Below are positions 2,206 to 45,640 of a DNA stretch of 64,000 nt, one piece after another. The stretch spans positions 29,898,534 through 29,962,533 of the forward strand of contig CM046858.1 of assembly GCA_025617745.1 (NCBI GenBank), in the 5' to 3' direction. Positions within the stretch are counted from its first letter, which is position 1; each line of letters opens with the position of its first letter. Position numbers and translations under genes: made by a program. Source of the stretch: Heliocidaris erythrogramma (lineage: Eukaryota > Echinodermata > Echinoidea > Camarodonta > Echinometridae). Below the pieces are notes generated by a model that searched no databases, was not told the origin of the DNA, and saw only the letters and a program-made list of their open reading frames with translations.

Positions 2206-2316
2206 CACTACCACCACCAGACCTATAATATTTAGCTGTAATAGGCCTAGGTCTAACACTAACTAGTTAGGTCTAGACCTACCTGTTTATTTCTCACGTC
2301 TCATCAAAGTCTTTAA

Positions 2317-3230
2317 AGTAGCTATCCAAAGAAAATCACAAATATGGCAATTAATGTATCACTAGAAACTGGGAAGCTTACAGATGGCAATCGTATAAGT
2401 TTTATGTCAACTGCGTATCTGATGATTATAAAAACAACATAAATAAAAGCTCTTTTCAGCATGTGGAATATCCGAGGATTCGCCAGAAATATAGCGATGT
2501 TTTGATGTCGTCTCACTAGGGACCAATCCTGCTTAAGCAGACGACGTCCTATAATGAATGAACGTAATTGCAATGCAATTATTTATCAAATTATAAAGAG
2601 TTTGGTATATTTAAACATGACCTTATTTCACACCATTCTAAAAGGGAAAGTGAAACTGATTCTGATAACTAAAACCGTTTGATTGTAAATACACAGGAGA
2701 AAGGTCAATGATCAATGAAATAAACCCCACTTTCAAATCGAAAAGCCCTCCGAATAATAGCACGGATGGTATTCGTTCCCTGTTGAAACGCCGAACATGC
2801 CCCGGTGCAAGCAGCTGAAAATACAATGGCGTCTTATTTTGTTTACAAGTGACTGATTCCTTATTTTTTTAACTCTGCAGTTTTCATCAAAATAATACCA
2901 TACATGAAGTTAAGAGTGAGGCAACAGACTAACATTAAGACTGACGTTAGTCAAGTAAGAGAAATAAGTGAAGAGGAGATGACAAAACAGGCACTGAAAA
3001 ATTTGTAAGATGTTATGGGACATCGTCTGCTTAGACAGGACTGGTCCCTGGTGTGTCGTCACACATCTCATCAGCGTTCGAGGAGCTCTTCAGCTGCTAT
3101 ATCGGGGGCTGTATTTTACTGTTTTATAATTGATAATAATCATTACTTCAAATGTTTCCAAGCGTTGAATTTGGATACCCTTGTTTAATTTATGCCATCT
3201 ATGCAATAATAAGTATTACGCCAATATTTA
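2317..3230 (+). mobile_element. TTAA-associated repeat element A, copy 1
   Basis: This segment is a near-identical direct copy of 36354-37290. It starts with TTAA then AGTAG; homology with the other copy runs to about 3230. The right end differs from copy 2, so the terminus here is uncertain. The two halves of the element are inverted relatives of each other (compare 2508-2553 with 3012-3066), giving a foldback form. A short ORF like that at 36956-37186 begins near 2903 but is closed by a stop at 3006-3008. No known transposase is visible. Confidence 0.7.
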
Positions 3231-11821: not shown

Positions 11822-13050
11822 ACCTAGCTGGAAAGGAAACCAATTTTCATGCGCATGAATGTAAAGATCGCATAGTCCGATATAACGATCAAAAGATTCG
11901 CCAAAGTCCCAAGATACATGAATGGACAATGCCATACGTTTAAAGTGATGCGGAGTGCCTGCCAGACGCCCCCAAAGTGCCATAACCCTCAATATTGAGC
12001 TAGCTCAGCTGGAAAGGAAACCCTTAGAAACCTATATCAAAAGATTCGCCATAGTCCCAAGGTACATGAATGAGCAATGCCAGACATTTTAGGTGGTAGG
12101 GGTGCCCGCCAGACGCCCCCAAAGGGGTTCCAAAAATTGAGCTAGATCAGCTGGAAAGGAAACCCTTAGAAATCTATATCAAAAGATTCGCCATATTCCC
12201 AAGGTACATGAATGGACAATGCCAGACGTCTTAAGTGGTGGGGAGTGCTTGCCAGAAGCCCCTAAAGGTCCCCAACCCCCAATATTGAGCTAGATCAGCT
12301 GGAAAGGAAACCCTAAGAAACCTATATCAAAATATTCGCCATAGTCCAAAGATGCAGAAATGACCACTGCCAGACGATTTAAGTGGTGGAGAGTGACTGT
12401 TAGACGGTCGTTACTAATATACACCCCCTATATTTTTTGAGCGAGATCAGACCTGTGCAAACGAAAGTTCGTGGGAACAAAGAACAAAACAAAAACAACA
12501 AACAAATTAGCTTTGTCTAGACTTACATAGATACTGCCAGAAATTATCATGATTATATATTGTGAGATCTACCTGCCAGACGCCCCCCCCCCCCCCAATC
12601 CTCCATGTAAAGAATGACACTCAAAGTGTGCAAATCAACACTCATTATTGTTTTTCTTATTCCTTTTTTTTTTTACATATAAATGATATCTAGACGCTGT
12701 AAAACCAGCAAAATATGATTGATTTAACGCACGTAAGGTATTTACTCCTATATGTACCTTTTAACAATGTGGATTATGGTTTGTGTGATTGTTAATGATT
12801 ATAGTACGTTATCATTATAATTGACATTAGTTCTTGACTGCAGTAGAAAAACTCCGTTTGGCCAAGTATTGTAGTTATAAATATATAATTCATATTAGAC
12901 TACATTATATCATTTTATATGTTTATAGCAAGCACCAGAAAATGTTTTAGTCCTGATATAAGCTGTATATTATCAAATTCATTCCAAAAAAATCTGACCT
13001 TTTTTTTTAAAGGGCTAGCACAAGTTTTATAGTCAAATTTGGGCCGGTTC
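11612..13050 (+). repeat. left inverted arm of the foldback element
   Basis: Outer part: unique terminal sequence of about 180 bp, then a run of 27 or so G at about 11791. Middle: units starting AGCTGGAAAGGAAACC at about 11828, 12007, 12149 and 12298, each with AAAGATTCGCCATAGTCC and GCCAGACGCCCC blocks. Inner part: a poly-C run near 12585, then unique AT-rich sequence. All blocks reappear inverted and in reverse order at 20895-23334. Confidence 0.85.
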
Positions 13051-14950: not shown

Positions 14951-15841
14951 TATTAAAACATTAGTTATACCATGATACACAGACCTGTTCTATTGTACCT
15001 TTTTGACATGTTCACATGAAACTTTAAGTATGAATAGTATATTTAATTGAAACTTAGTCATCGTATTAAGAATCATATTCCGCACATTTTAATACCGATC
15101 AATTATGCACCACACTGTTTTCATAACAACCGTTCAGTGCAAACCGACACGTTTTTGATAAGTTTTTGACATTTTGGCGTAAAAATTGATTTTTATTTTA
15201 TATTTAAGGTTTAATATGGGTTTCAAACAATATTCACACAGTTAATTTATATTGTACATATCTTTGATGCATGTAAACACCATTTTGATAATGGACATCT
15301 TCGTTGCTTATCAGCAGAGTGCCCTGCAAAGTACCATAAAACCTCGGTTTTGTTAACATTTGAGATTTTTGAATATTTGTTAGCACATTGATAACTTGAA
15401 CCTTTTTCCTTTTAGGCTGTTACTTTTTAATTCCTTATCATGATGCAATGAAACTTGGAATAATAGTCAGAATGATATTTCGCATTGTTTGAAAACAGTG
15501 GATATATGTTTACATAAACTTCAGTTACCGACTATGCGTGGCTAGTGGACGGACGTGTTTTTTAACCTCTCTCCATTTGGAGTCTTAATAAATTATCTTT
15601 TAAACCTGCGATCCTGTTTTTTAGTCATGCTCGATATGTATTTTTAACCTATCATACCCATGGATTGTTCTTTTTTATTTATATATATGTCATTTTGACG
15701 GTTTTATCGTGATTTTTAACATTTGCACTTGGAAAGCGCGGGAACTGCTCTCCATAGACATTGCACATACATGTATCGGCAATAGTCTAGCCTACATCGT
15801 TAGCGAAATGAATTTGACTTGGACTCTTATGGGAAGCGTCT

Positions 15842-17173
15842 TTGAAAGGGAATTACAGTAATCGGGTGAGTTCGTTCCATATCTTTTCTACAATCCAAAA
15901 ATTTCAAGATGGCGACCACAACAAGGCCAGTCTCCACATACGTAGGAAATCGTCAATCCCATATTCGCTTACTAGTTTATCAATACTGTTAGTACTTTCG
16001 GGAGACATTCAAGTAAACCCCGGACCTAAGTCTGTTAAACCTAGAACCCCTAAATACCCATGCGGATCATGCAGTAAAAATGTGAACTCAAACCACAAGG
16101 CAATGGAATGTGAAGAATGCGAAATATGGTTCCACACAAAATGTATAGGAATGAGTGATGTATTGTATCAGGTACACATGAACCACAACTCTTATACCTG
16201 GATATGCTGTAACTGTGGTTTACCGAATTTTTCGAGTTCCCTGTACTACGAATCAGACGTGGAAACTTCAAATCCTTTTCAACCACTTAGTGATATGGAT
16301 AGTAATACTGCAGTAGGTAGACCCTTGCTCTCATCAAGCCCGAAGAAGAACAATAGTAATCCAACAAAGCCCAACAAAATTAGTAATAGGCGTAGTAGTA
16401 AAGCAACGAACCAAAATAAAACAAATACTTTGTTGAAGGTCTTGAACATCAATTTCCAGAGTATTCGCAACAAAATTGCACAGTTTCAAGCACTGCTCGA
16501 AACCGAAAAGCCTGACGTAATAATAGGGACAGAAATAATATGGTTGCAGGACGGGATTCTTTCTAGCGAGTTTCTCCCTACATCATACCAAATATTTCGC
16601 CGGGACCGTAAAACCGACACTACCGGTGGTGGTGTCCTAATAGCACTTCGTTCAGATTTAGTTGTTCAAGGTGAAGAACTACATCCATCTAGTACTGATA
16701 GTGAAATGCTATGGACTAGTATCCACGTGACAGGACGTCCTACGCTATATATTGGGGCTTTTTATAGGAAACACCACAGCTCCCCAATTGTAGATCAAAA
16801 GCAGCTTTTAGATCTCGAAACTGTTATTGCAGGTTTACCAATAAACAGCCAAATTTTCCTAGCCGGGGACTTTAACTTACCGGATGTTGACTGGAAAAGT
16901 AACTGCTTTAAACCTGGGGGGAGATACCCTGCGATTAGTAAACAAATGATAAACATTGCTGACGACTACAACCTTCATCAAGTTGTTGAGCATCCTACAC
17001 GGAATGGCAACATATTAGATCTGGTGTTCTCTAATGTCCCGTCACTCGTGCAAAATATACAGATTCTACCTGGAATATCTGATCATGACATTGTGTCCAC
17101 AGAAATTAGGTGTTCTCAATACAGAGTAAAACAAAAACCTACCTGGTTAAAAAAGGGGACTTTGAAAGTATAA
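15842..17173 (+). CDS. CR1 LINE ORF, N-terminal part: 2A-like motif, PHD finger, endonuclease
   Basis: The open frame of about 444 codons has no in-frame ATG near its start; TTG at 15842 is just the first possible start. An ATG at 15808 opens a short frame that ends at 15859-15861, so a frameshift in the leader is likely. Residues 43-62 end in SGDIQVNPGP, a 2A-like motif. Residues about 73-131 form a PHD-type finger (CGSC, CEEC, WFHTKC, WICCNC). From about residue 195 comes the endonuclease: LNINFQSIRNK, a GTEIIWL block, GDFNLPDVDW and SDHDIVSTE carry the metal and catalytic residues (N, E, D, N, D-H). The frame is lost by a one-base slip near the A/G run at 17149-17157. Confidence 0.9.
   Translation: MKGNYSNRVSSFHIFSTIQKFQDGDHNKASLHIRRKSSIPYSLTSLSILLVLSGDIQVNPGPKSVKPRTPKYPCGSCSKNVNSNHKAMECEECEIWFHTKCIGMSDVLYQVHMNHNSYTWICCNCGLPNFSSSLYYESDVETSNPFQPLSDMDSNTAVGRPLLSSSPKKNNSNPTKPNKISNRRSSKATNQNKTNTLLKVLNINFQSIRNKIAQFQALLETEKPDVIIGTEIIWLQDGILSSEFLPTSYQIFRRDRKTDTTGGGVLIALRSDLVVQGEELHPSSTDSEMLWTSIHVTGRPTLYIGAFYRKHHSSPIVDQKQLLDLETVIAGLPINSQIFLAGDFNLPDVDWKSNCFKPGGRYPAISKQMINIADDYNLHQVVEHPTRNGNILDLVFSNVPSLVQNIQILPGISDHDIVSTEIRCSQYRVKQKPTWLKKGTLKV
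15968..16027 (+). other. 2A-like ribosome-skipping motif
   Basis: Encodes LTSLSILLVLSGDIQVNPGP. The 2A consensus is D-[VI]-E-x-N-P-G-P after a hydrophobic helix. Here the core is DIQVNPGP, with Q for E and all of D, N, P, G and P kept. 2A-like sequences are known at the N terminus of APE-type LINEs in sea urchin and amphioxus, where they can act in skipping or as signal sequences. Function here is inferred from the motif. Confidence 0.75.
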
Positions 17174-19284
17174 AAGCCGACTTACAGAGTTACAAGGAAT
17201 CAATTAATGGTGACACAGTTAAAAAATGAAGTGTCAGTGAGCTTTGGGAAGGATTAAAGACGGCTCTTACTTCGTCTATGAATCAACACATTCCTTTAAG
17301 ACTGGTTTCACCGAATAGTAGCCTACCCTGGTTCAAACATACCCATAAAAAACTGAGTGCTCGGAAAAGGAAAGCTTATGACAAGGCACAACACACTAAA
17401 TCTGAAACTGACTGGTTAAATTTTCGCACACTGCGTAGGTCATTGGACCGAAGCCTGAGAAAAGCACTTAGTGAACATCTCTGCAAGGTGGGGGAAAACT
17501 TGTCATCTAACAACACAAAGCCTTTTTGGAATTTTATGAAAAGCCTGAGACAGAGTTCTGCTGGGATTGCCTCACTCAAGACTGCATCTGGCGTAGCAGT
17601 ATCCCCCTTAGATAAAGCTAATGCGCTCAACAGCCAATTCAAGTCTGTGTTCACTCAAGAAGATTGTCAAACCTTACCTGCATACAGATGCCCTGCACCT
17701 CCCCCTATGCCCCCCATCAAAATATCAACACAGGGTATCATTAAATTGCTCCAAGAACTGAAATCTCACAAAGCACCGGGTCCGGATGGAATTTTACCCT
17801 CAGTGTTGAAGGAGTGCGCTGAAAACATAGCCCCTCTTCTTCAACCAATCTTCCAGAAGTCCATAGACACAGGGGAGTTACCCAAAGACTGGTTAAAAGC
17901 TAATGTTTCACCAATATTTAAAAAGGGAAACCGAGCAGAGCCAAGTAACTACAGGCCTGTATCACTGACATCTACCCCTTGCAAGCTTTTGGAGCACATT
18001 ATCCACACAAATGTTATGGGTCATTTTGAGAAGTATAACATCATCAATGATGAACAACATGGTTTCCGTAAAGGACGGTCGTGCGAAACACAACTAGCGC
18101 TGACAATAAATGACTTAGCAAAAATTCTTGATCGTCAGGGACAAGCAGATGTAATCATAACTGACTTTAGCAAAGCCTTCGATACAGTCCCACATAAACG
18201 CCTTCTTCTGAAACTACACCAGTCAGGCATCACAGGCGCCCTGTTTAGCTGGTTCACAAATTTCCTTACCACAAGGATTCAATCTGTGGTATTGGACGGA
18301 GTTTCTTCATCATCAGTTCGGGTACAATCTGGGGTTCCTCAGGGCACCGTCCTGGGCCCCCTACTGTTTACTCTATATGTCAGTGACCTCCCCCAGGGAA
18401 TCAAATCTCAGGTGCGTCTTTTTGCCGATGATTGCATTCTTTACCGTGAAATCAAAGCTGAAGATGACAGAACAGTACTGCAAAATGATATCGACACACT
18501 ATGCAGTTGGGAATCTAAATGGCAGATGAAGTTTAATATAGATAAATGCCACGTGATGCACATCACTCACAAACGGAAGCCCCTTCACACTTATTACAAT
18601 ATGAATGGGAATCGTTTAAAGTCTGTTACCAATCACACCTATCTTGGCGTTGAACTCAATAATAAATTGAATTGGGTAGATCATGTAAATAATACTGCAA
18701 CCAAAGCAAACAAGGTACTTGGGCTCCTACGTAGAAACCTGTACAGCTGTCCCCAGAAAGTGAAGGAAACGGCATACAAAGCTTTGGTGCGCCCCAAATT
18801 GGAATACTGCGCCTCAGTGTGGGACCCATACAAAAAGGACCATAAAAACAGGTTGGAAGCAGTACAGCGTAGAGCAGCCAGATTTGTCTGCAAAGATCCA
18901 AGAAGGACTAGCAGCGTCTCTACCATGATAACTAAACTGGGCTGGGAACCACTGGAAAAGCGTCGGGCCGTATCCAGACTTTCTCTATTGTTCAAGTCCA
19001 TACACCACATGGTAGCCATAAACACAGATGTACATCAACTTTACCAAGCTGACAACAAAATCCGTACCCGAAAGTCATGTGAAATCTCTTTTACTCATCC
19101 CACTGTCAAAAAGGATTGTTATAAGTACTCATTCCTACCAAGAACCATGACTGAGTGGAACTTACTGCCCCCAGATATACGTCAAACCACCACAGTTGAT
19201 AGCCTTAAGTCTAAATTGAATAGCATGGACTTTAACTTTTTTCATTCGCGGGGCCCATTACACGTATTAAGTCTACTCCACTAG
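17149..19284 (+). CDS. CR1 LINE ORF, C-terminal part: reverse transcriptase
   Basis: Continues the endonuclease protein after the frameshift. One in-frame TGA (17227-17229) precedes a long open frame from 17278 with 668 codons. RT blocks in order: KAPGPDGI, PIFKKGNRAEPSNYRPVSLT, EHGFRKGRS-like QHGFRKGRSC, ITDFSKAFDTVPH, SGVPQGTVLGPLLF, RLFADDCILY (the FADD catalytic pair), and HTYLGVELN. The C-terminal ARFVCKDPRR and FLPRTMTEWNLLPPDI blocks are typical of CR1/L2 elements. Only two lesions break the whole protein, so this copy is young or was recently active. A homopolymer sequencing error could explain the frameshift. Confidence 0.92.
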
Positions 19285-30882: not shown

Positions 30883-31832
30883 TGTTAATGACGTTGATTT
30901 GACCAAAGATTTGTCGCCCTCTGTTGGCATATGATATTTGATTTGATGGTACAGCTAGGTACGGCTTCTTGCTGACCGTTTGAATTGGCAAAATCGTTAA
31001 TCTGAGGGATTTTCAGTTCGCAATAGGGCACAGAGGTCAGTACTATATATAATTTAATGTTTACTTGCAATTAAGTTGGTGTTATGTAAAGGATTATGAA
31101 GATTGATATGGATATAAAACTAAGTCTGGTTGTACGTAGATGATACGTTCATGTTCATGTAGATTACCCACGTAGTGTACGACTGTTGGAATTTTCATTA
31201 GAATCAGTTATGAAATGTACAAAATGAATAGTAAGAAATTTATGATGTGAAATGCATGAAATTATGACAGTATGAGACAGATTTCATTTATCAAAGATAT
31301 AATAAGTTCGTGAAGAAAGCGACTAAATTTAGAGAAATTTCAGACAAATGTGAAGATTTCTGACTGGTAAAAAGGATTTGTATTTACTACGTAGAAAGGC
31401 ATAGGTGGGATACTGAGAATGTAATTTTCTAATATCTGAAGTTGATTTAATTTAGATGGACTGGCAAGCTTATAGGATTTGTTATGAGCCTTTTGACCTG
31501 TGTGACATCAGTTTGATAATAACCGAGCCGTGTAATATGTCAGGTTTATTTTCCAAGGTTATTTGAATAGATCATTCTGTGATCGATCAGAGCCGTAATC
31601 GATTCATAATTATTTCCTATTTTGGGCAATTGTACTGAAGCATTGCAGTTTGAGTTCAGATTCATTTGCATATGTACTTATTATTCTTACAATTTTGTCT
31701 TTGTCATACAGTTTTCACGGAGTTGGATACAAATGATACAAATATGGCAAATAAAGAAAAAAAGACAACTCCAGTCGAGACTTGTGTCTTTTTTAAATCA
31801 TGAGGGTTTATAGTGGCTCTGCCACATCTACA
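30883..31832 (+). repeat. 5' LTR of the BEL/Pao-like element
   Basis: About 950 bp. From 31016 it is nearly identical to 35126-36100 and then to 44872-44962. Its first 130 bp have no match in the 3' copy. The end TACA at 31829-31832 is chosen because the 3' copy stops matching right after it. A clean primer-binding site is not evident, so the LTR end could be about 20 bp earlier. Confidence 0.65.
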
Positions 31833-31917
31833 GTGAAAATTCTCCCATATTGAAATCCCTATCAGATGATTCTTTGTTTCTGCCAAGACTGGGAAATTAT
31901 AGAGACAGCTGTTCATT

Positions 31918-35519: not shown

Positions 35520-36353
35520 AGTGTACGACTGTTGGAATTTTCATTAGAATCAGTTATGAAATGTACAAGATGAATAGTAAGAAATTAATGATGTGAAATG
35601 CGTGAAATGCATGAAATTATGACAGTATGAGACAGATTTCATTTATCAAAGATATAATAAGTTCGTGAAGAATGCGACTAAATTTAGAGAAATTTCAGAC
35701 AAATGTGAAGATTTCTGACTGGTAAAAAGGATTTGTATTTACTACGTAGAAAGGCATAGGTTGGATACTGAGAATGTAATTTTCTAATATTATCTGAAGT
35801 TGATTTAATTTAGATAGACTGGCAAGTTTATAGGATTCGTTATGAGCCTTTTGACCTGTGTGACATAAGTTTGATAATAACCGAGCCGTGTAATATGTCA
35901 GGTTTATTTTCCAAGATTATTTGAATAGATCATTCTGTGATCGATCAGTGCCGTAATCGATTCATAATTATTTCCTATTTTGGGCAATTGTATTGAAGCA
36001 TTGCAGTTTGAGTTCAGATTCATTTGCATATGTACTTATTATTCTTACAATTTTGTCTTTGTCATACAGTTTTCACGGAGTTGAAGGATACAAATGATAC
36101 AAAATTCCATTGATTTAGATTTTTGTGCTATTGGTATCACTGAAACTTGGCTTTAAAAAAATGACCCTGATTATCAAATTGATGGCTACACATTTATAGG
36201 TAACTCCCGCCAGGGCCGTAGAGGGGGTGGAGTGGGAGCTTTCATTCGGAATGATTTTAACTTTGTACATAGAATTCAATTTGATGTTTTTTCTGAATCT
36301 GTTGAATCAATTTGTATAGAAATTAAGTCTTGCCCTAAAAATATTTTATTTAA

Positions 36354-37290
36354 AGTAGAACACTCAAGAAAATCACAAATATGGCAATTAATGTATCACT
36401 AGAAATTGGGAAGCTTACAGATGGCAATCGTATAAGTTTTATGTCAACTGCGTATATGATGATTATAAAAACAACATAAATAAAAGCTCTTCTCAGCATG
36501 TGGAATATCCGAGGATTCGCCAGAAATATAGCGATGTTTTGATGTCGTCATACGAGGGATCGATCCTGCTTAAGCAGACGACGTCCTATAATGAATGAAC
36601 GTAATTGCAATGCAATTATTTATCAAATTATAAAGAGTTTGGTACATTTAAACATGACCTTATTTCACACCATTCTAAAAGGGAAAGTGAACTGATTCTG
36701 ATAACTAAAACCGTTTGATTGTAAATACACAGGAGAAGGGTCAATGATCAATGAAATAAACCCCATTTTCAAATTGAAAAGCCCTGCGAATAATAGCTGG
36801 ATGGTATTCGTTCCCTCTTGAAACGCCGAACATGCCGCGGTGCAAGCAGCTGAAAATACAATGGCGTCTTATTTTGTTTACAAGACAGTGACTGATTCCT
36901 TTATTTTTTTAACGCTGCATTTTTCATCAAAATAATACCATACACGAAGTTAAGAGTGAGGCAACAGACTAACATTAAGACTGACGCTAGTCAAGTAAGA
37001 GAAATAAGTGAAGAGGAGATGACAAAACAGGCACTGAAAAATGTGTATAATGTTATGGGACATCGTCTGCTTAGACAGGACTCGCCCCTCTTGTGTCGTC
37101 ACACATCTCAGCAGCGTTCAAGGAGCTTTTCAGCTGCTATATCGGGGGCTGTATTTTACCGTTTTATAATTGATAATAATCATTAATTCAAATGTTTCCA
37201 AGCTTTAAATTTGGATAACCTTGTTTAATTTATGCCATCTATGCAATAATAAGTATTAAGCCAATATTTAAAATCATTAATTATTCTACT
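36354..37290 (+). mobile_element. TTAA element A, copy 2
   Basis: 937 bp, TTAA on both sides (36350-36353, 37291-37294), ends AGTAGAA and TTCTACT. It is a close direct copy of 2317-3230. The inner halves are inverted relatives. The right TTAA also serves as the left flank of element B. Confidence 0.8.
36956..37186 (+). CDS. short ORF conserved between the two copies of element A
   Basis: 76 codons from ATG: MRQQTNIKTDASQVREISEE, then KQALKNVYNVMGHRLLRQD. The same peptide frame is present in the other copy but stops after KNL. The opposite arm of the element encodes, on the minus strand, a related string (GRRLLKQDWSLVRRH at 2503-2547). I recognise no family. It may be a captured exon pair or mere by-product of the inverted arms; the protein-level status is unproven. 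Confidence 0.35.
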   Translation: MRQQTNIKTDASQVREISEEEMTKQALKNVYNVMGHRLLRQDSPLLCRHTSQQRSRSFSAAISGAVFYRFIIDNNH

Positions 37291-37465
37291 TTAAAGGTCC
37301 CCTTTTATGGAATTACAAAGGAACTTCATTTAATAGACTTTTCTACTGTGAATCCAGATCTGTCAATCATATTACCTGAATTCCATTCATTAATCTGTAA
37401 CCTTGAAAATAAAAAAATAACTGGGAACGCCCCTAAAAATTTTGGAAAATCGGTCCAGCGATCGA

Positions 37466-37483
37466 TGACGTCATGTGACGTCA
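37466..37483 (+). promoter_or_regulatory. double CRE-like palindrome upstream of the ballast gene
   Basis: TGACGTCA twice in 18 bp (37466-37473 and 37476-37483), about 145 bp before the ATG at 37627. CREB/ATF sites have this sequence. A single matching site lies at the other end of the element. Confidence 0.55.
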
Positions 37484-37539
37484 CCCACAGAACGCTCGAC
37501 TCACACAAGCTGGATCAGTATCGATGTGTGTGTGTTATG

Positions 37540-38860
37540 GCTATTGAGCTTTGTGTAGTTCCCTTCGACTTCGTGCCATTTCAGCCCTTCATTTTAGCTT
37601 TTTAAAGACAAAATCCTACATCAACGATGGCATCATCTTCTTCAGCCAGGACACTTATTCAGGATCAGATATATCTGATTTGGAGCATCAAGTCCCAGAA
37701 GAAATTGAAGAGGAATTAGGGGCCCGGCCGTATACTATGTTTGAGCCAGACATGTCGGATTCTGGGCAAGATTCTGATGATGACAGAGACGTCCCTGATT
37801 TTAATAACGGAGAGGATATCGACGGGAGACACAATTGGTAATTATTTTTTGATAATAAATTACCGATTAAAGTTTAATTCACGCATATCCACGTATTATG
37901 AATCTTGTTTACGCTTGCAAATTGCCCGAGAAGCTGAGCTGTTACTTCGCTGATCGAGGCAGTGAGCTCGATGTGCGCAGGGCCGGGGTACACCCCGCGC
38001 TGTTTGGTTGTTCGCCTGCTGACCCTGCCTGGGCTTGCGCTCGGGCAGTTTTACTGGTGCATGGGGTGGTAGCGTTTGATTCTAGTAAATTCTAACATTG
38101 ATATCCAGAAAACTCTTAGCTCTCCTGTTATCTTGCTTGTTTTCTTTGTGCTGCTACACTAAGTAAGTGTAGGTACCGTTATAGTTGACAATAGATATGA
38201 TCTTCTTCTTCTTCTTCTTCTTCTCCATCCAGGGTTTCATCCAGTGTGTCTGGAGCGGTATGTGATGGAAACTGCTTACTAGCTATCTGTATCGGCAGCA
38301 GTATGGCGGACAGGCAAGGCAGGATGCAACTGAAAATCAGTGAGTACACCATATTTTTTGTTCTAATCCTTACTGCAGTATTCCTGTATTATATAAAGCA
38401 GTTTGGATGCAATATGCCAATTTGGCTCCTTATTTAATATTACGATATTCTATAAAATAATGTTTTAGCCTTAATGTAAATAGAGGAAGCTTATTCTATT
38501 TGCAGTGTACATGTATTTTCTTGTCCTATGTGCAGATTAACGTTTGTTTCCTCTTTCCCCATCACAACATTTTACACTGCGATGTTGACAACTAAATTAT
38601 TAGCTAATCTTCTATTGTTTATTTGTGAAGTTCAAAGTAAAAGTTACCTCACTATCACCTACATCATAGACTACACTGTGCATTGTTTTGAAGTTGTCTA
38701 ATCATAGTTTCCTTTGTACTCTTAAAAAAAAAATCTTTTATAGGAAAGCCAGGCAGGGCATGACATGTTCCTCTCCCATCTTGTGCCGTGACAAGAATCC
38801 GTGCAGCATTTCCATCAGAACCATTGGCGGATCCAGGGGGCACAGCTGACTCGGTCCCCC
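37540..38860 (+). pseudogene. P2X7-ballast-like cysteine domain gene, degenerate
   Basis: Three exon-like pieces. (1) 37664-37839: SDISDLEHQVPEEIEEE, then ARPYTMFEPDMSDSGQDSDD and HNW, followed by a GTAATT donor; the RPY.FEP plus acidic tract opens many ballast-type proteins. (2) About 38232-38334: FHPVCLERYVMETAY, then with a frameshift SYLYRQQYGGQ, donor GTGAGT. (3) 38744-38860: HVPLPSCAVTRIRAAFPSEP. The VCL...V..TAY..YRQQYG and PSCAV..IR..FP blocks are the signature of the zinc-binding C-terminal ballast of P2X7 and its many stand-alone invertebrate relatives (often named P2X purinoceptor 7-like). The WCTCG.C segment was not found. No channel part exists here. Frameshifts make it inactive. 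Confidence 0.7.
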
Positions 38861-39105
38861 CGCCCTTTGGAAGAGAAGTATGATTTTTTTTGTTGCTTGT
38901 CAGGGAATTATGGAGGGGAAACTAGACTCCAATAACCCCTTATTGAGCGATTTTTGAAGGTTTAGCGAATTTCTTTTTTGCCCCCCCCCCCCCCCCCTCA
39001 CTGAGGGACTTTTCGAGAAGCTGACGAGACCAGAAAAATACGGGTCTACCTTTTGACAAACTTTCATTTTTGTGCCCCCTCTTTTACTCAATCCTGGATC
39101 AGAAC
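38824..39105. repeat. GGCGGATCCAGGGGG-bounded repeat with poly-C
   Basis: Starts TTGGCGGATCCAGGGGG, ends CTCAATCCTGGATC, with a C run at 38983-38997. It is related to 110-290 and in its ends to 2051-2205. It overlaps the last ballast-like piece, whose reading degenerates here. Confidence 0.45.
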
Positions 39106-40500
39106 AGAACAGGGGCTTAGAAGAGGCATAGACCTACATACAATTTTGCTGTTTTTCCCCCACCTTGTCAAGATCTATGTTTACAGAAAAATATATGTTT
39201 TACTTCCACCTTATTACTGAGATTGTTATTACTGTTCTAAGATAGATTTTCAAAGATATTTTTTTTTAATTGGAAATATTCCCTGCATTTTACCTCTTTA
39301 GGGTATTTTCTTTTCAAAGTTTACTGTATGTATATATATTTTTTTAACCTTTGCAAAAAAATCAAAAGGGAGGGCAGCTCTGTGGAACTTTAATTTAAGC
39401 TATGCAACCATTATTCTCATACTTTTTTTTTACTGGGGCTTGGATATGACATGCACAAATCTCAACATTAAGCAAAGGTGATAGTAGAATTGAACATTTT
39501 AAAAATATTTATGTATCAGAACTGTTGTTCCATCAGTGTAAACATCTCCACAAAGTCATTATTTGAAAGAAAAAAATATTCAGTACTAATGACTGGCAAA
39601 CATCTTTTATTTAATCGGGTCATTCATGTGATCATCATTATTGTTGCTTCACATCATATTTCTTTTCAAATTGACATTATTTTTTCTACAGATTTTTTTT
39701 TTCTTCTTTCATTTGATTTATTGTATTTATTATTATGTACTGATATATGTTGGTCTAGTTGTTAACTTGATAATGCTTAGATAGCATATACATTTATCCT
39801 GTATATAACTGTTTATAAGAAATGTTAAAAATGCTAGTACGTCATATCTTTTCATGATATTTAATTCCTATACATGGATATCAGTTTTCCTGAAAGTTGG
39901 GTTTATTACATGAGGGTGTGCTACACTGTGACAATGTGGTAAAAATGTTATTGCTGTTTTTGCTTCAAGTATCAGAGGAAAAGAGTAGTCTAGAAGGCTT
40001 ATTTTGAATTGAATATTCATTTTCACTGTCAGAAATAAAATTGGAATTGGGTAACTGAGTTCACATCTAAGTATTTGCCCAGAGCATTTTTTGTAATGGA
40101 TGTTGTAAAGATGCATGTATCTCAGTCAAGAATGATAACTCTGTTGTTAATGGCATATGAGGTCTGTTATTTTTTACGGCATTTGTTGTTTAATTTGTTA
40201 ATGAAACACACTTTGGAAGCTAATCAGTTTTGTTTGTTTTGTTTTGTTATGTTTGCTTTTTTGGGGGGTGGGGGTGGGCATTCTCCTATTGAATTTTTGA
40301 TGTTCAATTGTAAGACAACCATTTCCTGGATACATCTATATCTACATTTCTCCAGAAGTAATAATATATTTCAAATCAATTGAATATTTTTGTCATCTCT
40401 GGAAGAGCTCAAACACATTTACTATGCAAGGCTTGTCGTGAATGAAACTAACAATTGAAAAGAAAGGTGTGAGTGCGTGAATGAGATCAAAACCAACAAT
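39106..40500. other. interior of element B, nothing recognised
   Basis: AT-rich, no motif of a DDE transposase seen in any frame. ORFs below 105 codons show no family features. Confidence 0.45.
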
Positions 40501-40519
40501 TGGCAGAATGGAAAAAGAA

Positions 40520-41005
40520 AAAAAAAAGAGATAAAGTTGAGAGGAGATGTGTGTAATTGGAGAATATTGGGCAAAAAGAAGGAGAAAGGGAGACAGAAAG
40601 CACAAGAGAAGAAATAGTGAAAAAAGAGGGAATCACTGGGGGAAAAAGGGAGAGATAAAAAAGTTGAGGGAAGATGTGTGAAAGTGGAGAATTTTGGCAT
40701 AAAGAGGGAGAAATGGAGGGAAAAGCACAAGGGAAGAAATAGAGAGAGAGGGAATCATTGGGGGGAAAAGGGAGAGATAAAAAAGTTGAGGGAAGATGTG
40801 TGAAAGCGGAGAATTTTGGGCATAAAGGTTGAGAATTTTGGGCATAAAGAGGGAGAAATAGAGAGGGAATCATTGGGGGAAAAAAGAGATAAAAAGTTGA
40901 GGGAAGATGTGTGTAAGTGGAGAATTTTGGGCATAAAGAGGGAGAAAGGGAGGGAAAGCACAAGAGAAGAAAAGGTGAAAGAGAGAGAGGGAATCATTGG
41001 AAAGC
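40520..41005. repeat. purine-rich minisatellite
   Basis: Four to five diverged units of about 115-130 bp, each with GAGAATTTTGGGCATAAAG, GGGAATCATTGGGGG and AAGTTGAGGGAAGATGTGTG. The long minus-strand ORFs here (70-158 codons) are products of the repeat. Confidence 0.85.
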
Positions 41006-41528
41006 AGATTTTCTGTCAAATGAACTACATGTATAAGGTAGAGAAGTAGGAATCAACCTGTAACTGTGATGTATACCCCTTTTTCCTGCCGAAGGAGGTG
41101 GGGGGGGGGGGGGGGGGGGGGTTGTAGGTTGAAAATTGCCCGTTACACTTTCACTACATTCAGGGTGGTAACAAAAATCAATATATTATACGGTGGAAAC
41201 TTAGTATAACGAGGTCCTTGGGACTATTAAAATTACCTGGTTAAATCCAGAATCTCGTTACATCAGTTTAAAAATAAAAGAATATAAAAAGTTGAGACCA
41301 AAATATTGCCTTGTTATATCAGGAATACTGTTGTATCAGACCTCTTTATACTGAGTTTCCACTCTACCATGATAAACATTTTTATAACACTCTTTATGGA
41401 GAAAGATCTTTTTCTTCATCAAGAACAAAAAAAATCATTTTTAATAGTAAAGACCAATTGAGAGAGGTGCTTGTGAGGTAAAGCTCAGAGTCGCCAAATT
41501 TCATATTATTGATACATGTATGATCAAA

Positions 41529-41778
41529 CTTGTTTCAGGGACGGCCTCTTCTTGATGCCATACGCAGCCCCGTGCTATCGACGAAGTCCTCCGCACAAAA
41601 GTGCTCGGAGCACACAACACTGTGCTCACTCGGCCCCTTCCAATGGGCGCGAGTTAATTTTACTTTTGCGGTCCATTTCCTTCTTATATTTGGGTCTTTA
41701 GGGAATAAATGTAGACTGACACCCTCCTTTGTGGTGTTACTGCAACCTGCAACAACGCAGCGTTGCGGCATACTTCGC
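41529..41778 (-). CDS. THAP zinc-finger exon in element B
   Basis: From ATG at 41778: MPQRCVVAGCSNTTKEGVSL, HLFPKDPNIRRKW, then HSVVCSEHFCAEDF. The C-x4-C ... W ... C-x2-H zinc ligands and the FP motif are those of a THAP domain, a DNA-binding module of P-element and Kolobok transposases and of host THAP proteins. After STG the frame shifts by one base and goes on GIKKRPSLKQ, the start of the usual domain end, then a possible intron. It is convergent with the ballast-like gene. Most likely the N terminus of a lost transposase or an accessory DNA-binding protein. Confidence 0.88.
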
Positions 41779-41877
41779 TTTAGAGGTGGTTTTCGAGGTG
41801 GTGTACACAACAAGAAGTTAGTTTGCACATGTACTACATAGGCAATATTGTAAACAAGCATCGGCAATGTCGGTTTG

Positions 41878-41885
41878 TGACGTCA
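41878..41885 (-). promoter_or_regulatory. CRE-like palindrome upstream of the THAP exon
   Basis: TGACGTCA about 100 bp upstream of the THAP ATG on the minus strand. It mirrors the double site at 37466-37483. Confidence 0.5.
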
Positions 41886-42092
41886 CACGTCAATCATGCT
41901 CGCGGAACGAGAATTCGGGGTTTAAAAGGGGGCGGAGCTTAGCAGACTGTTTTGGACATGAATACCTGGGGGAAATATTATTTTAAAAATATCTTGATAC
42001 GTATTTATTGCAAACGGATGTGATTTTTCAATTTAGATGAGATGCATGTACAAAATACCAAGAATTATAATTTCATGACAGGGGACCTTTAA

Positions 42093-44594
42093 TGTTATTT
42101 ATAGACCACCTAACTCACCCCTGACTAATTTTATTGAATCCTTGAATATTATTTTAGAAAATGTAAATAGTGAAAATAGATTATTGTATTTCATTGGAGA
42201 TTTTAATCTTAATTTATATAATGCTGAATCTTGCCCGTATATTAAAGATTTTTTAGATGCATTTATGACAAAGTCTGTTTATCCTATCATTCATTATCCA
42301 ACCAGAGTTACGGATCAAACTGCAACATTGATTGATAATATTTTCACAAATGATTTGAATGATGTATCATGTGGTATTTTCCTTGTTGATATTAGTGACC
42401 ATTTCCCTATTTTTTGTATACACTCTAAAATTATTATAGCTAACAAAAATAAAAAAATAATTAAACGTGTGGTAAATGATCGAAATATTCAAGATTTTAC
42501 GAATAAATTGAAGAATGTCGTTTGGCATATAGTTGATGATGATCCAAATTCTACTTATAATAATTTTTTGCATCAGTTTTGGCAAGTTTATGATGATTGT
42601 TTCCCAAAGGTTGAAATAAAAAATAAATCAAGGAAAGATAAGCCATGGTTTAATTTAGACTTGCGTAAAATGTGTAATAAAAAGTTTTTATTATATAAGA
42701 AATATATTAGAAACCCAACTGAATATAGAGAGCGGACGTATAAATCATTTCGTAATAAAGTAAATAATGAAATTAAACGTATTAAAAGGGAATATTTTAA
42801 AAATAAATTTTTTGAAGTTAAGTCAAATTTAAAAAGAACTTGGAAAATTATAAACAACGCTTTGGGTAATAAAAGAAAGGAAAAAAATATCGGAAATATC
42901 AATGTTAACGATAAAATTATTACTAATGATTTCACCAAAGCACAAACATTCAATAAATATTTTGTTGAGATTGGTTCTTCATTAAGTAAAAATATACAGT
43001 GCAATAGCTCTGGCAATAATTTTGTGCAATACTTAAAACATAATATTTATACTGCATTTTTTAATCCCATCACCCCTGGTGAAATAATAAATATTACTTG
43101 CAAGTTTGATAATAAATCTAGTGCAGGTTTCGATGAAGTAGATATTTCAATTGTTCAAAAGGTCATACATATTATTTGTCACCCTCTGTGCAATATATTT
43201 ATCTCTGTTTTATCTGTTGGTGTATTTCCTGATCAATTAAAGATTGGTAAAGTTGTTCCGGTTTTTAAAAATGGATCTCCGTCTAATATTTCAAATTATC
43301 GACCTATATCAGTGTTACCAGTGTTCTCAAAAATTCTTGAAAAATGTATATATAATCGCCTTTTATATTTTTTGGATAAACATGACATTATTTGTAAATC
43401 CCAGTATGGTTTCCGTCCCGGGCGCTCCACATCCTCTGCATTAGCTGATTTAGTTTGTAAAGTCTCAACTGCTTTTAATTCTAAAGAAATATTATTTGGA
43501 TTATTTTTGGATTTGAGTAAGGCATTCGATACTTTAGACCATTCTATTCTTTTATATAAGTTAGTAAATTATGGTATTCGTGGTGTCCTCTTAGATTTAT
43601 TCGAAAGTTATTTATTGAATCGTAAACAGTATGTGTTAATTAATAATGTTACGTCTGAATTAGAAACAGCAGGATGTGGAGTGCCCCAGGGGTCCATTCT
43701 GGGACCATTATTGTTTCTTATCTATATTAATGATGTATGCAATATTTCTGATGTATTACAATTTATTTTGTATGCTGATGATACAAGTGTTTTTATGTCT
43801 GATGTAAATATTAATAATTTAATAATCAATTTCAATTTTGAGTTACGCAAATTATCACAATGGCTTGTTGTAAATAAATTGATTTTAAATCTTAAAAAAA
43901 CTCAGTATATGATATTTACCGACAAGAAAATTAATTATAATAATGTTATTATTGAAATGAATGGTACTAAAATAAATAATGCTACATCTATTAAATTTCT
44001 TGGAGTGATTGTGGACTGTAAAATGTTATGGCATGAACATGTAAATGAAGTTTGTAGCAAAGTTTCTAAATGTATTGGCGTACTTTATAAATTGAAATAT
44101 TTTCCACGTAATATTTTATTAATGATTTACAACGCTATAATTTCACCTTATTTAAATTACTGTAACATTGCATGGGCCAATTCTAGAAATTACTCAATGA
44201 TGAGACTATTCTTGTTACAAAAGAAAGCCGTGAGAATAGTTTATCATGCCAATTATCTTGCCCATTCCACACCAATTTTTACTGAATTAAAGTTATTGAA
44301 TATTTTTGATATAATTATAATATTGCAGTATTTATGTTTTTAGTTTTTAATAAAATAGTACCATCTAGTCTTTCAACATGTTTTAAATTGAATTCTGAAG
44401 TACATTCATATAATATGCGAAAGCCATTAGATTTTCACTTGCCATTTGAGAGAACCAATATTGGTATCAAATCTATATTCTTTAAGGGTCCTAAAATTTG
44501 GAACGAAATACCTGATGAAATTAAATTAAGTGTATCACTCAATGCTTTTCAACGATTATTTAAAAACTCGTTATACAATTTGCAATGTTCATGA
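42093..44594 (+). CDS. LINE endonuclease end and reverse transcriptase
   Basis: Open from 42093 to 44340, then a one-base frameshift to the frame ending at 44594. Blocks: FIGDFNLNLY and ISDHFPIFC (endonuclease end), KVVPVFKNGSPSNISNYRPI, YGFRPGRSTSSAL, GLFLDLSKAFDTLDHSIL, CGVPQGSILGPLLFLIY, FILYADDTSVF (YADD catalytic box), FLGVIVDCKM. The C-terminal FKGPKIWNEIPDEIK is in the shifted frame. This is a CR1/L2-group RT with strongly AT-biased codons. Only one RT frameshift is seen, but the gene is cut from its start by the TTAA elements. Confidence 0.9.
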
Positions 44595-44962
44595 GATTCT
44601 TTTCAGGCTTTTCTTCAGCTTATGTTATGTGTAGGGTTTGTCTAGGTATATTAATTTGTTTGTATTTGTATTATCATCCGTACATATTTATATTCTTTTA
44701 ATATCATAAGTTATTGATCCAATTGTTATTTTTCATTAGGTGGCAGCACTTTATAAGACCTGTTTCTTTTTAAGCTGTCTCCACATTCCTATATTAATAT
44801 TTTGTTTTACTTTGTATATTTATGTGTTTTTATGAATGAATGGAATAAAAATTAAATTGAATTGAAATTGAAATATGGCAAATAAAGAAAACGGACAACT
44901 CCAGTCGAGACTTGTGTCTTTTTTAAATCATGAGGGTTTATAGTGGCTCTGCCACATCTACA

Positions 44963-45640
44963 GCGACCAAGGTGCCCCTAGGGTCGACGCCCGTAATCGA
45001 CGAGCCCTTCCATCGCGTAGCTGTTGACCTGGTAGGCCCAATCACGCCAGTCTCTTCCAAAGGAAATCGGTACATTCTCACACTGGTCGACTACGCTACA
45101 CGATATCCAGAGGCAGTGCCCCTCAGAAATATCGACACTGCCACGGTAGCTGAAGCACTGATGAGTATCTTCTCGAGAGTTGGACTTCCGAAGGAAATGC
45201 TCAATGATAGAGGGTCTCAGTTCACTTCAGGAGTCATGAAGGAGGTCAGCCGACTGCTTTTTTTACAGCACGTCACGACGACCCCATACCATCCTCAATG
45301 CAACGGACTTGTTGAGAGGTTTAATGGGACCCCGAAGAGAATGCTCATCAAGATGTGTGAAGAGCCCCCTACAGATTGGGACCGCTACATCGACTCTCTG
45401 TTTGCCTACCGGGAGACGCCTCAAGATAGCACTGGCTTTGCTCCTTTCGAGTTGCTGTACGGACGAGTGGTTAGGGGACCACTGATGATTCTCCAAGAGT
45501 TGTGGACAAGGAATATTCAACATCCGGAAACCAAGACCACGTATCAGTTCGTTTTGGATTTTAGATTACAAGGTTGATCTAGGTACGAGAGTCACTACTT
45601 TTCATGCCAATCTCTTGAAGCAGTACCTGCGACGTGAAGA
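44963..45640 (+). pseudogene. Ty3/gypsy (gmr1-like) integrase core
   Basis: Continues the protein broken at 30882. Core: TKVPLGSTPVIDEPFHRVAV, DLVGPI (first D), ILTLVDYATRYPEAV, LNDRGSQFTS (second D), TTPYHPQCNGLVERFNG (E). All three DDE residues are present. The long frame ends at 45577; a neighbouring frame then reads LGTRVTTFHANLLKQYLRRE, the integrase C-terminal part. An RT follows downstream in the same direction, the reverse of the usual gypsy order. Confidence 0.92.

Follow-up and report, generated by a model that had tools for sequence, protein, structure and literature searches.

Kolobok DNA transposons insert at TTAA targets, and their transposases usually carry THAP, DDE and H2CH motifs; in Xenopus, such XKol transposases have been assigned T2 miniature inverted-repeat transposable elements (MITEs) with terminal AGGRR (PMC6004289). 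Koloboks of the Kol0 type encode a transposase together with a second protein, KolX, which resembles residues 476-595 of P2X7 and has the ballast fold, and from which P2X7, and probably Nanor, derived (Kojima and Bao, 2022; PMC9587614). Ballast domains have been described across animals (PMC7016195). Here we examine a window, the whole 64,000-nucleotide stretch of Heliocidaris erythrogramma DNA that was analyzed (contig CM046858.1, positions 29,898,534 to 29,962,533), in which an initial annotation had recognized at 37295-42088 a TTAA-flanked, Kolobok-type transposon pairing a degenerate P2X7-ballast-like gene with a THAP gene. That reading is correct in substance. Its further suggestion that the pairing was undescribed does not stand, as a Kolobok with a ballast-fold gene was already reported in 2022 (PMC9587614). 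We put the probability that the interval derives, as a non-autonomous element, from a Kolobok of the Kol0/KolX type at roughly 0.92.

The element comprises 4,794 bases and is bounded by TTAA target-site duplications at 37291-37294 and 42089-42092, each part of an exact end match. Self-comparison of the window places its 31-nt terminal inverted repeats at 37295-37325 (+), beginning AGGTCCCC, and at 42058-42088 (-), GGGGACCT; the two arms are 84% complementary, bearing out the inverted ends first described. The end sequence TTAAAGGTCCCC matches perfectly at 37291-37302 (+) and at 42081-42092 (-), and nowhere else in the window. Allowing up to two mismatches, six matches occur in the window versus 5.13 expected, the other four carrying one or two mismatches. 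One end-like site at 12262 (one mismatch) was set aside: it lacks a partner end, and self-comparison showed no resemblance to the element. The termini read 5'-AG...CT-3' and so conform to the 5'-RR and YY-3' rule that distinguishes Kolobok from piggyBac (PMC9587614).

The termini also bear on a rival reading, in which the interval is a piggyBac element that carries a KolX-like protein. Such an element would likewise use TTAA, but the RR/YY ends argue against it, as do the THAP exon inside the element and the genome's ballast-DDE-THAP triads (below), whose core weakly resembles MULE and IS256 transposases. No piggyBac domain was listed for the four and three window pieces scanned, and we consider this reading highly improbable.

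Searching the 1.06-Gb assembly (26 contigs) with the element recovered at least 51 matching pieces (best 32 of 4,786 candidates scored). Among the matches listed, 12 run end to end or fall at most 12 bases short, the window included, and the other 11 are 96-97% identical to it. We fetched 20 further copies, which, being the best-scoring, form a non-random sample. Fifteen are flanked by TTAA on both sides and five on one side only (L010, L016, L021, L026 and L028); the flanks of L012 and L013 are alike. After leaving out L021 and L026, each missing an end, the remaining 18 were aligned with the window, and these 19 copies diverge from their majority sequence by 0.37-1.27%. The family is young, and recent movement would account for the near-identity of its copies.

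Genome-wide, exact matches to the 12-base end number 1,357 (664 + 693) versus 201 (101 + 100) for a control pattern, a frequency that exceeds chance. Among the first 100 places listed, 31 pairs of ends face each other less than 15 kb apart, at spacings of 641-643 bp (12 pairs), 3.9-5.8 kb (16) and 9.0-9.4 kb (3). The shortest class, known by end spacing alone, is too short for both genes and probably consists of MITE-like derivatives. By the initial annotation's own criterion, the pairing would be refuted by further copies that have these ends but neither gene; formally, 12 of the 31 pairs are of that kind, and read as MITE-like they leave the pairing unharmed.

The insertion site can be recognized as well. 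Immediately to the right of the element, at 42093-44343 (+), lies an interrupted non-LTR (long terminal repeat) retrotransposon with a weak endonuclease end and a reverse transcriptase (RVT_1, E=7.5e-34), the insertion target, other copies of which cross the TTAA. A search for empty sites used the window's joined flanks as query (best 40 of 315 candidates scored, two rows being the window itself). Ten of the 40 listed matches, 194-196 bases long, start 16 nt left of the join, reach the right end of the query and leave no space for a second TTAA; because they cross the join uninterrupted, retrotransposon copies run through the insertion site. Among the remaining rows, two begin 5 nt left of the join, and 26 cover the left flank and extend 2-10 nt beyond it. 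The interval is one member of a multi-copy family of DNA transposons whose ends are of Kolobok type, and it sits in a TTAA next to sequence of a non-LTR retrotransposon.

Within the element, pieces of a ballast gene lie on the plus strand and a THAP exon lies convergently on the minus strand, 2.8 kb away. The first ballast piece, a remnant of KolX exon A (GARPYTMFEPDMSDSGQDSDDD...), occupies 37627-37838 (+). Its ATG at 37627 is out of frame, a donor GT follows 37838, the peptide ...GARPYTMFEP... lies at about 37720-37748 (+), and locus L060 elsewhere in the genome holds its counterpart. The exon B remnant (38234-38339, +) reads FHPVCLERYVMETAY and a stop, then YRQQYGG... (YRQQYGGQARQDATEN) in a different frame, up to a donor GTGAGT; its zinc-cysteine 5' part is gone. 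The exon C remnant (38744-38820, +; PSCAVTRIRAAFPSE) contains PSCAVTRIRAAFP at 38776-38814 (+), and the sequence downstream of it replaces the EYRGFEEA-stop end seen in L059 and L060. The THAP exon, at 41535-41771 (-), encodes 78 aa ending in RGRP-stop and matches PF05485 with E=4.5e-14. Both genes had been named from the letters alone.

The ballast gene of the window family is a relic. None of the 19 aligned copies has an intact exon B: in 18 a stop follows METAY directly or slightly further on, and L025 has a frameshift. Neither these copies nor their majority sequence matches the zinc-cysteine piece of L059 at E up to 1, and about 800 bases are missing at its place relative to L060. It had been left open whether the ballast domain was a passenger or a working gene: a passenger remnant fits here, and a working gene is possible only in other, autonomous families.

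We considered whether two ordinary host genes had come to lie side by side by chance within repeats, as the abundance of ballast-like and THAP matches (best 150 of 462 and best 150 of 3,966, respectively) might allow. Against this, the entire two-gene unit recurs between TTAAs, and among the 19 aligned copies every ballast frame and 12 of the THAP frames are disrupted. For the window locus the multi-copy TTAA insertions rule out host-gene neighbors, and we give the idea next to no weight.

Relatives elsewhere in the genome establish what the ballast pieces are. The PF20478 genome search (best 150 of 462 candidates scored) reached a top E-value of 4.6e-22. Among the 30 loci kept, L051, L052, L054, L055 and L057 have at least one exon 83-96% identical to the window pieces, and exons 87-97% identical to window exons B and C sit in loci above the PF20478 cut-off. 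The identity of the window's ballast gene is secure because these relatives pass that cut-off. L059 and L060 retain the missing part, CSCSGGC...CC...DCITEHPGFHPVCLD, followed by the remaining B, exon C and a stop; these cysteine blocks are absent from 19 of 19 copies of the window family. A joined query, made of the zinc/B part of L059 and exon C of L060 (L059's own exon C differs by one residue), matches positions 82-191 of the 192-position PF20478 profile at 48.9 bits (E=9.3e-13), and the joined exons of L061 score 38.2 bits (E=1.9e-9). In the PDB the L059/L060 query matches four P2X7 sequences (E=1.7e-4, 6.2e-4, 0.011 and 0.012); the window ballast pieces have no match there. Given the complete exons of these relatives, the window family appears to descend from an element that carried a complete ballast gene. 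NG86 rates for ballast exons are mixed, with synonymous rates (dS) often saturated, and support no inference on selection of KolX.

To place the pairing in its genomic setting, we looked at where ballast and THAP exons lie relative to transposase cores. The ballast exons of L048, joined at guessed borders, match PF20478 with E=6.7e-19. Nearby, on the opposite strand and convergent with the ballast gene, is a 695-aa open frame with the blocks GDGRCD, ATDRH...DVWH and GAIESYH, in which D, D, DxxH and E residues can be assigned by eye as a putative catalytic core. The frame scores E=0.0028 with MULE (below the cut-off) and E=7.7e-7 with an IS256 transposase (28.4 bits versus a cut-off of 150). 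A PDB search with the DDE core returned one unrelated enzyme at chance level (E=0.24), which we dismissed. The genome search with this core (best 105 of 260 candidates scored) gave 108 stretches, which reduce to 66 loci once neighbors on one strand less than about 4 kb apart are combined. A ballast exon listed by the PF20478 search lies within 12 kb of 24 of these loci, versus 0.22 expected under uniform placement, and 24 of 25 DDE-ballast pairs are convergent, one being same-strand. THAP exons from the PF05485 search (best 150 of 3,966 candidates scored) lie within 13 kb of 19 loci, versus 0.24 expected, in all 19 cases upstream on the same strand. The matches listed include 13 ballast-DDE-THAP triads, with ballast-THAP distances of 7.5-18.6 kb, and in the PF05485 list all 16 THAP-ballast pairs within 16 kb are convergent.

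The order and orientation in the window are the triad layout minus the DDE part. With ballast exons near DDE loci and THAP exons upstream of them, the ballast-THAP pairing is what one would expect from the usual structure of autonomous Koloboks of the Kol0 type, and we take the window's THAP exon for the surviving 5' end of a transposase gene that has otherwise been lost. Together with the multi-copy TTAA insertions and the empty-site match, the triads uphold the view that one Kolobok-type element owns both genes.

A DDE core was not found in the family: the search (best 105 of 260 candidates scored) has no match at the element in the window or in the 20 fetched copies, and the window THAP exon is not linked to a DDE core in its own family. 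The initial annotation had pointed to 38.9-41.5 kb as a place to look for one. We rejected a hidden core there: L059-L061 align to that part without long open frames of their own, and the DDE search has no match in it among the candidates scored. Nor was a DDE-like open frame seen between the ballast and THAP ends in the stretches of L059-L061 that were read.

Several observations weigh against a derivation from Kol0/KolX-type Koloboks. On their own, the window's ballast pieces score 13.1 bits with PF20478 (E=0.092; cut-off 23.5), although that is the sole family listed. Among the matches listed, 42 of the 66 DDE loci have no ballast exon within 12 kb. THAP exons of the window type (best 150 of 3,569) lie within 12 kb of a DDE match 0 times and of a ballast match three times, two convergent and one same-strand. 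An autonomous element combining the exact window ends with a DDE core was not found; an exact TTAAAGGTCCCC end is absent within 10 kb at all five ballast-DDE loci of contig C1, along which the listed ends extend and pass on into C2, and the three same-end elements of 9.0-9.4 kb (C1:74593523, C2:8528708 and C2:9475218) contain none of the DDE matches scored. Finally, the empty-site copies share just 16 nt to the left of the join; the flank further out on that side is a different repeat.

The THAP exon raises a separate possibility. In Drosophila, the P-element derivative KP is a THAP-bearing N-terminal fragment that represses transposition. By analogy, a share of the copies of the window family could encode a THAP-only protein of 78 aa that is functional: binding to the ends, it could repress autonomous elements as a Kolobok counterpart of the KP repressor. 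The likeness would lie in an internal deletion leaving a THAP-bearing N-terminal fragment; the P element belongs to another superfamily, and the THAP exon of the window family bears no sign of selection. The 78-aa THAP open reading frame is open in 7 of the 19 aligned copies, and 59 of the 150 places scored, counting the window itself, have the same sequence as the window. High identity is, however, expected for a young family, and 11 of the 19 copies stop at 28 aa and one at 64. Divergence of the THAP exon (0.54%) does not stand out from that of other stretches inside the element, where values run between 0.29% (exon B) and 0.99%; the left terminal 100 bases diverge by 0.11%. Differences from the window copy number 18 nonsynonymous and 6 synonymous, and because this ratio is close to the neutral expectation, the exon looks neutral. 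We therefore think a repressor very improbable.

Set beside the described systems, the putative derivative of a Kol0/KolX-type Kolobok shares with Kol0 elements of the Kolobok-1_XT type the TTAA target, the RR/YY ends and the association of a transposase with a ballast-fold KolX, and differs in that the DDE core and the zinc-cysteine exon were not found in the window family (PMC9587614). The main text of that paper does not use the word THAP, and its portions cited here do not state a convergent layout for Kol0. The Xenopus XKol transposases and T2-MITEs offer THAP and DDE domains, TTAA targets, AG/AGG ends and assigned MITEs; their ends diverge further in, and a ballast gene is not mentioned in the portions cited (PMC6004289). 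The ballast domains of P2X7 and Nanor belong to the same family, PF20478, with cysteine blocks and a PSC...IR..FP block, but these are host genes, and in P2X7 the ballast domain is fused to the P2X channel (PMC7016195). Neither "transpos" nor "Kolobok" occurs in the main text of that paper.

A simple history would account for these features. In the ancestor, a KolX gene with the ballast fold would have run inward from the left end, and a gene for a THAP-DDE transposase inward from the right. A deletion may then have stripped the transposase gene of its DDE exons and KolX of its zinc-cysteine exon. A THAP-DDE transposase supplied from another place in the genome, a partner whose existence we infer, would have recognized the ends and driven recent cut-and-paste moves into TTAA sites. 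The ballast domain would then be a gene belonging to the transposon; our best guess is that KolX is most likely a zinc-stabilized accessory protein of the transposase. The counts from this one animal genome back the published view that a single kind of transposon unites ballast-fold genes with THAP-DDE transposases. Ballast genes as transposon genes would help explain the abundance of stand-alone ballast genes, and the window family would be an ordinary deletion derivative.

Some ballast matches occur in other arrangements. Three ballast exons lie on one strand at about 5.5-kb spacing (L060; G000:C15 31286680, 31292198 and 31297683), apparently a tandem array of the older non-autonomous relative. 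Clusters with about 1.4-2.9 kb spacing, some with stops, are found at C11 22196077-22202198 and C7 42458659-42461909 (L032-L034); ratios of nonsynonymous to synonymous rates (dN/dS) among L032-L038 pairs are 0.22-0.90. At L040 a THAP exon (E=1.8e-9) and a ballast exon lie about 30 bases apart on opposite strands, convergently (1232-1453, +, and 1486-1884, -), perhaps as nested elements.

The window holds further repeats. Inside the transposon, an imperfect tandem repeat with a unit of about 120 bp was seen at 40500-41010 by self-comparison. To its left, a 0.92-kb repeat at 36349-37270 is 94.7% identical to window 2312-3230, and this left-flank repeat and the retrotransposon copies overlap by about 18 nt at the junction. 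A stretch that is contiguous at 31643-31836 has a counterpart split at 36104/44870 (36001-36103 and 44871-44966; 97% and 96% identity), interrupted by 8.8 kb that contains the transposon. This interruption is a nested insertion, and its host is probably an LTR-type element, given the integrase core (rve, E=3.4e-12) at 44927-45574. Elsewhere in the window, 15818-19281 resembles a near-intact non-LTR retrotransposon, with two long open reading frames carrying a PHD finger (E=1.4e-4, below the cut-off) and an endonuclease, followed by a reverse transcriptase (E=4.6e-35).

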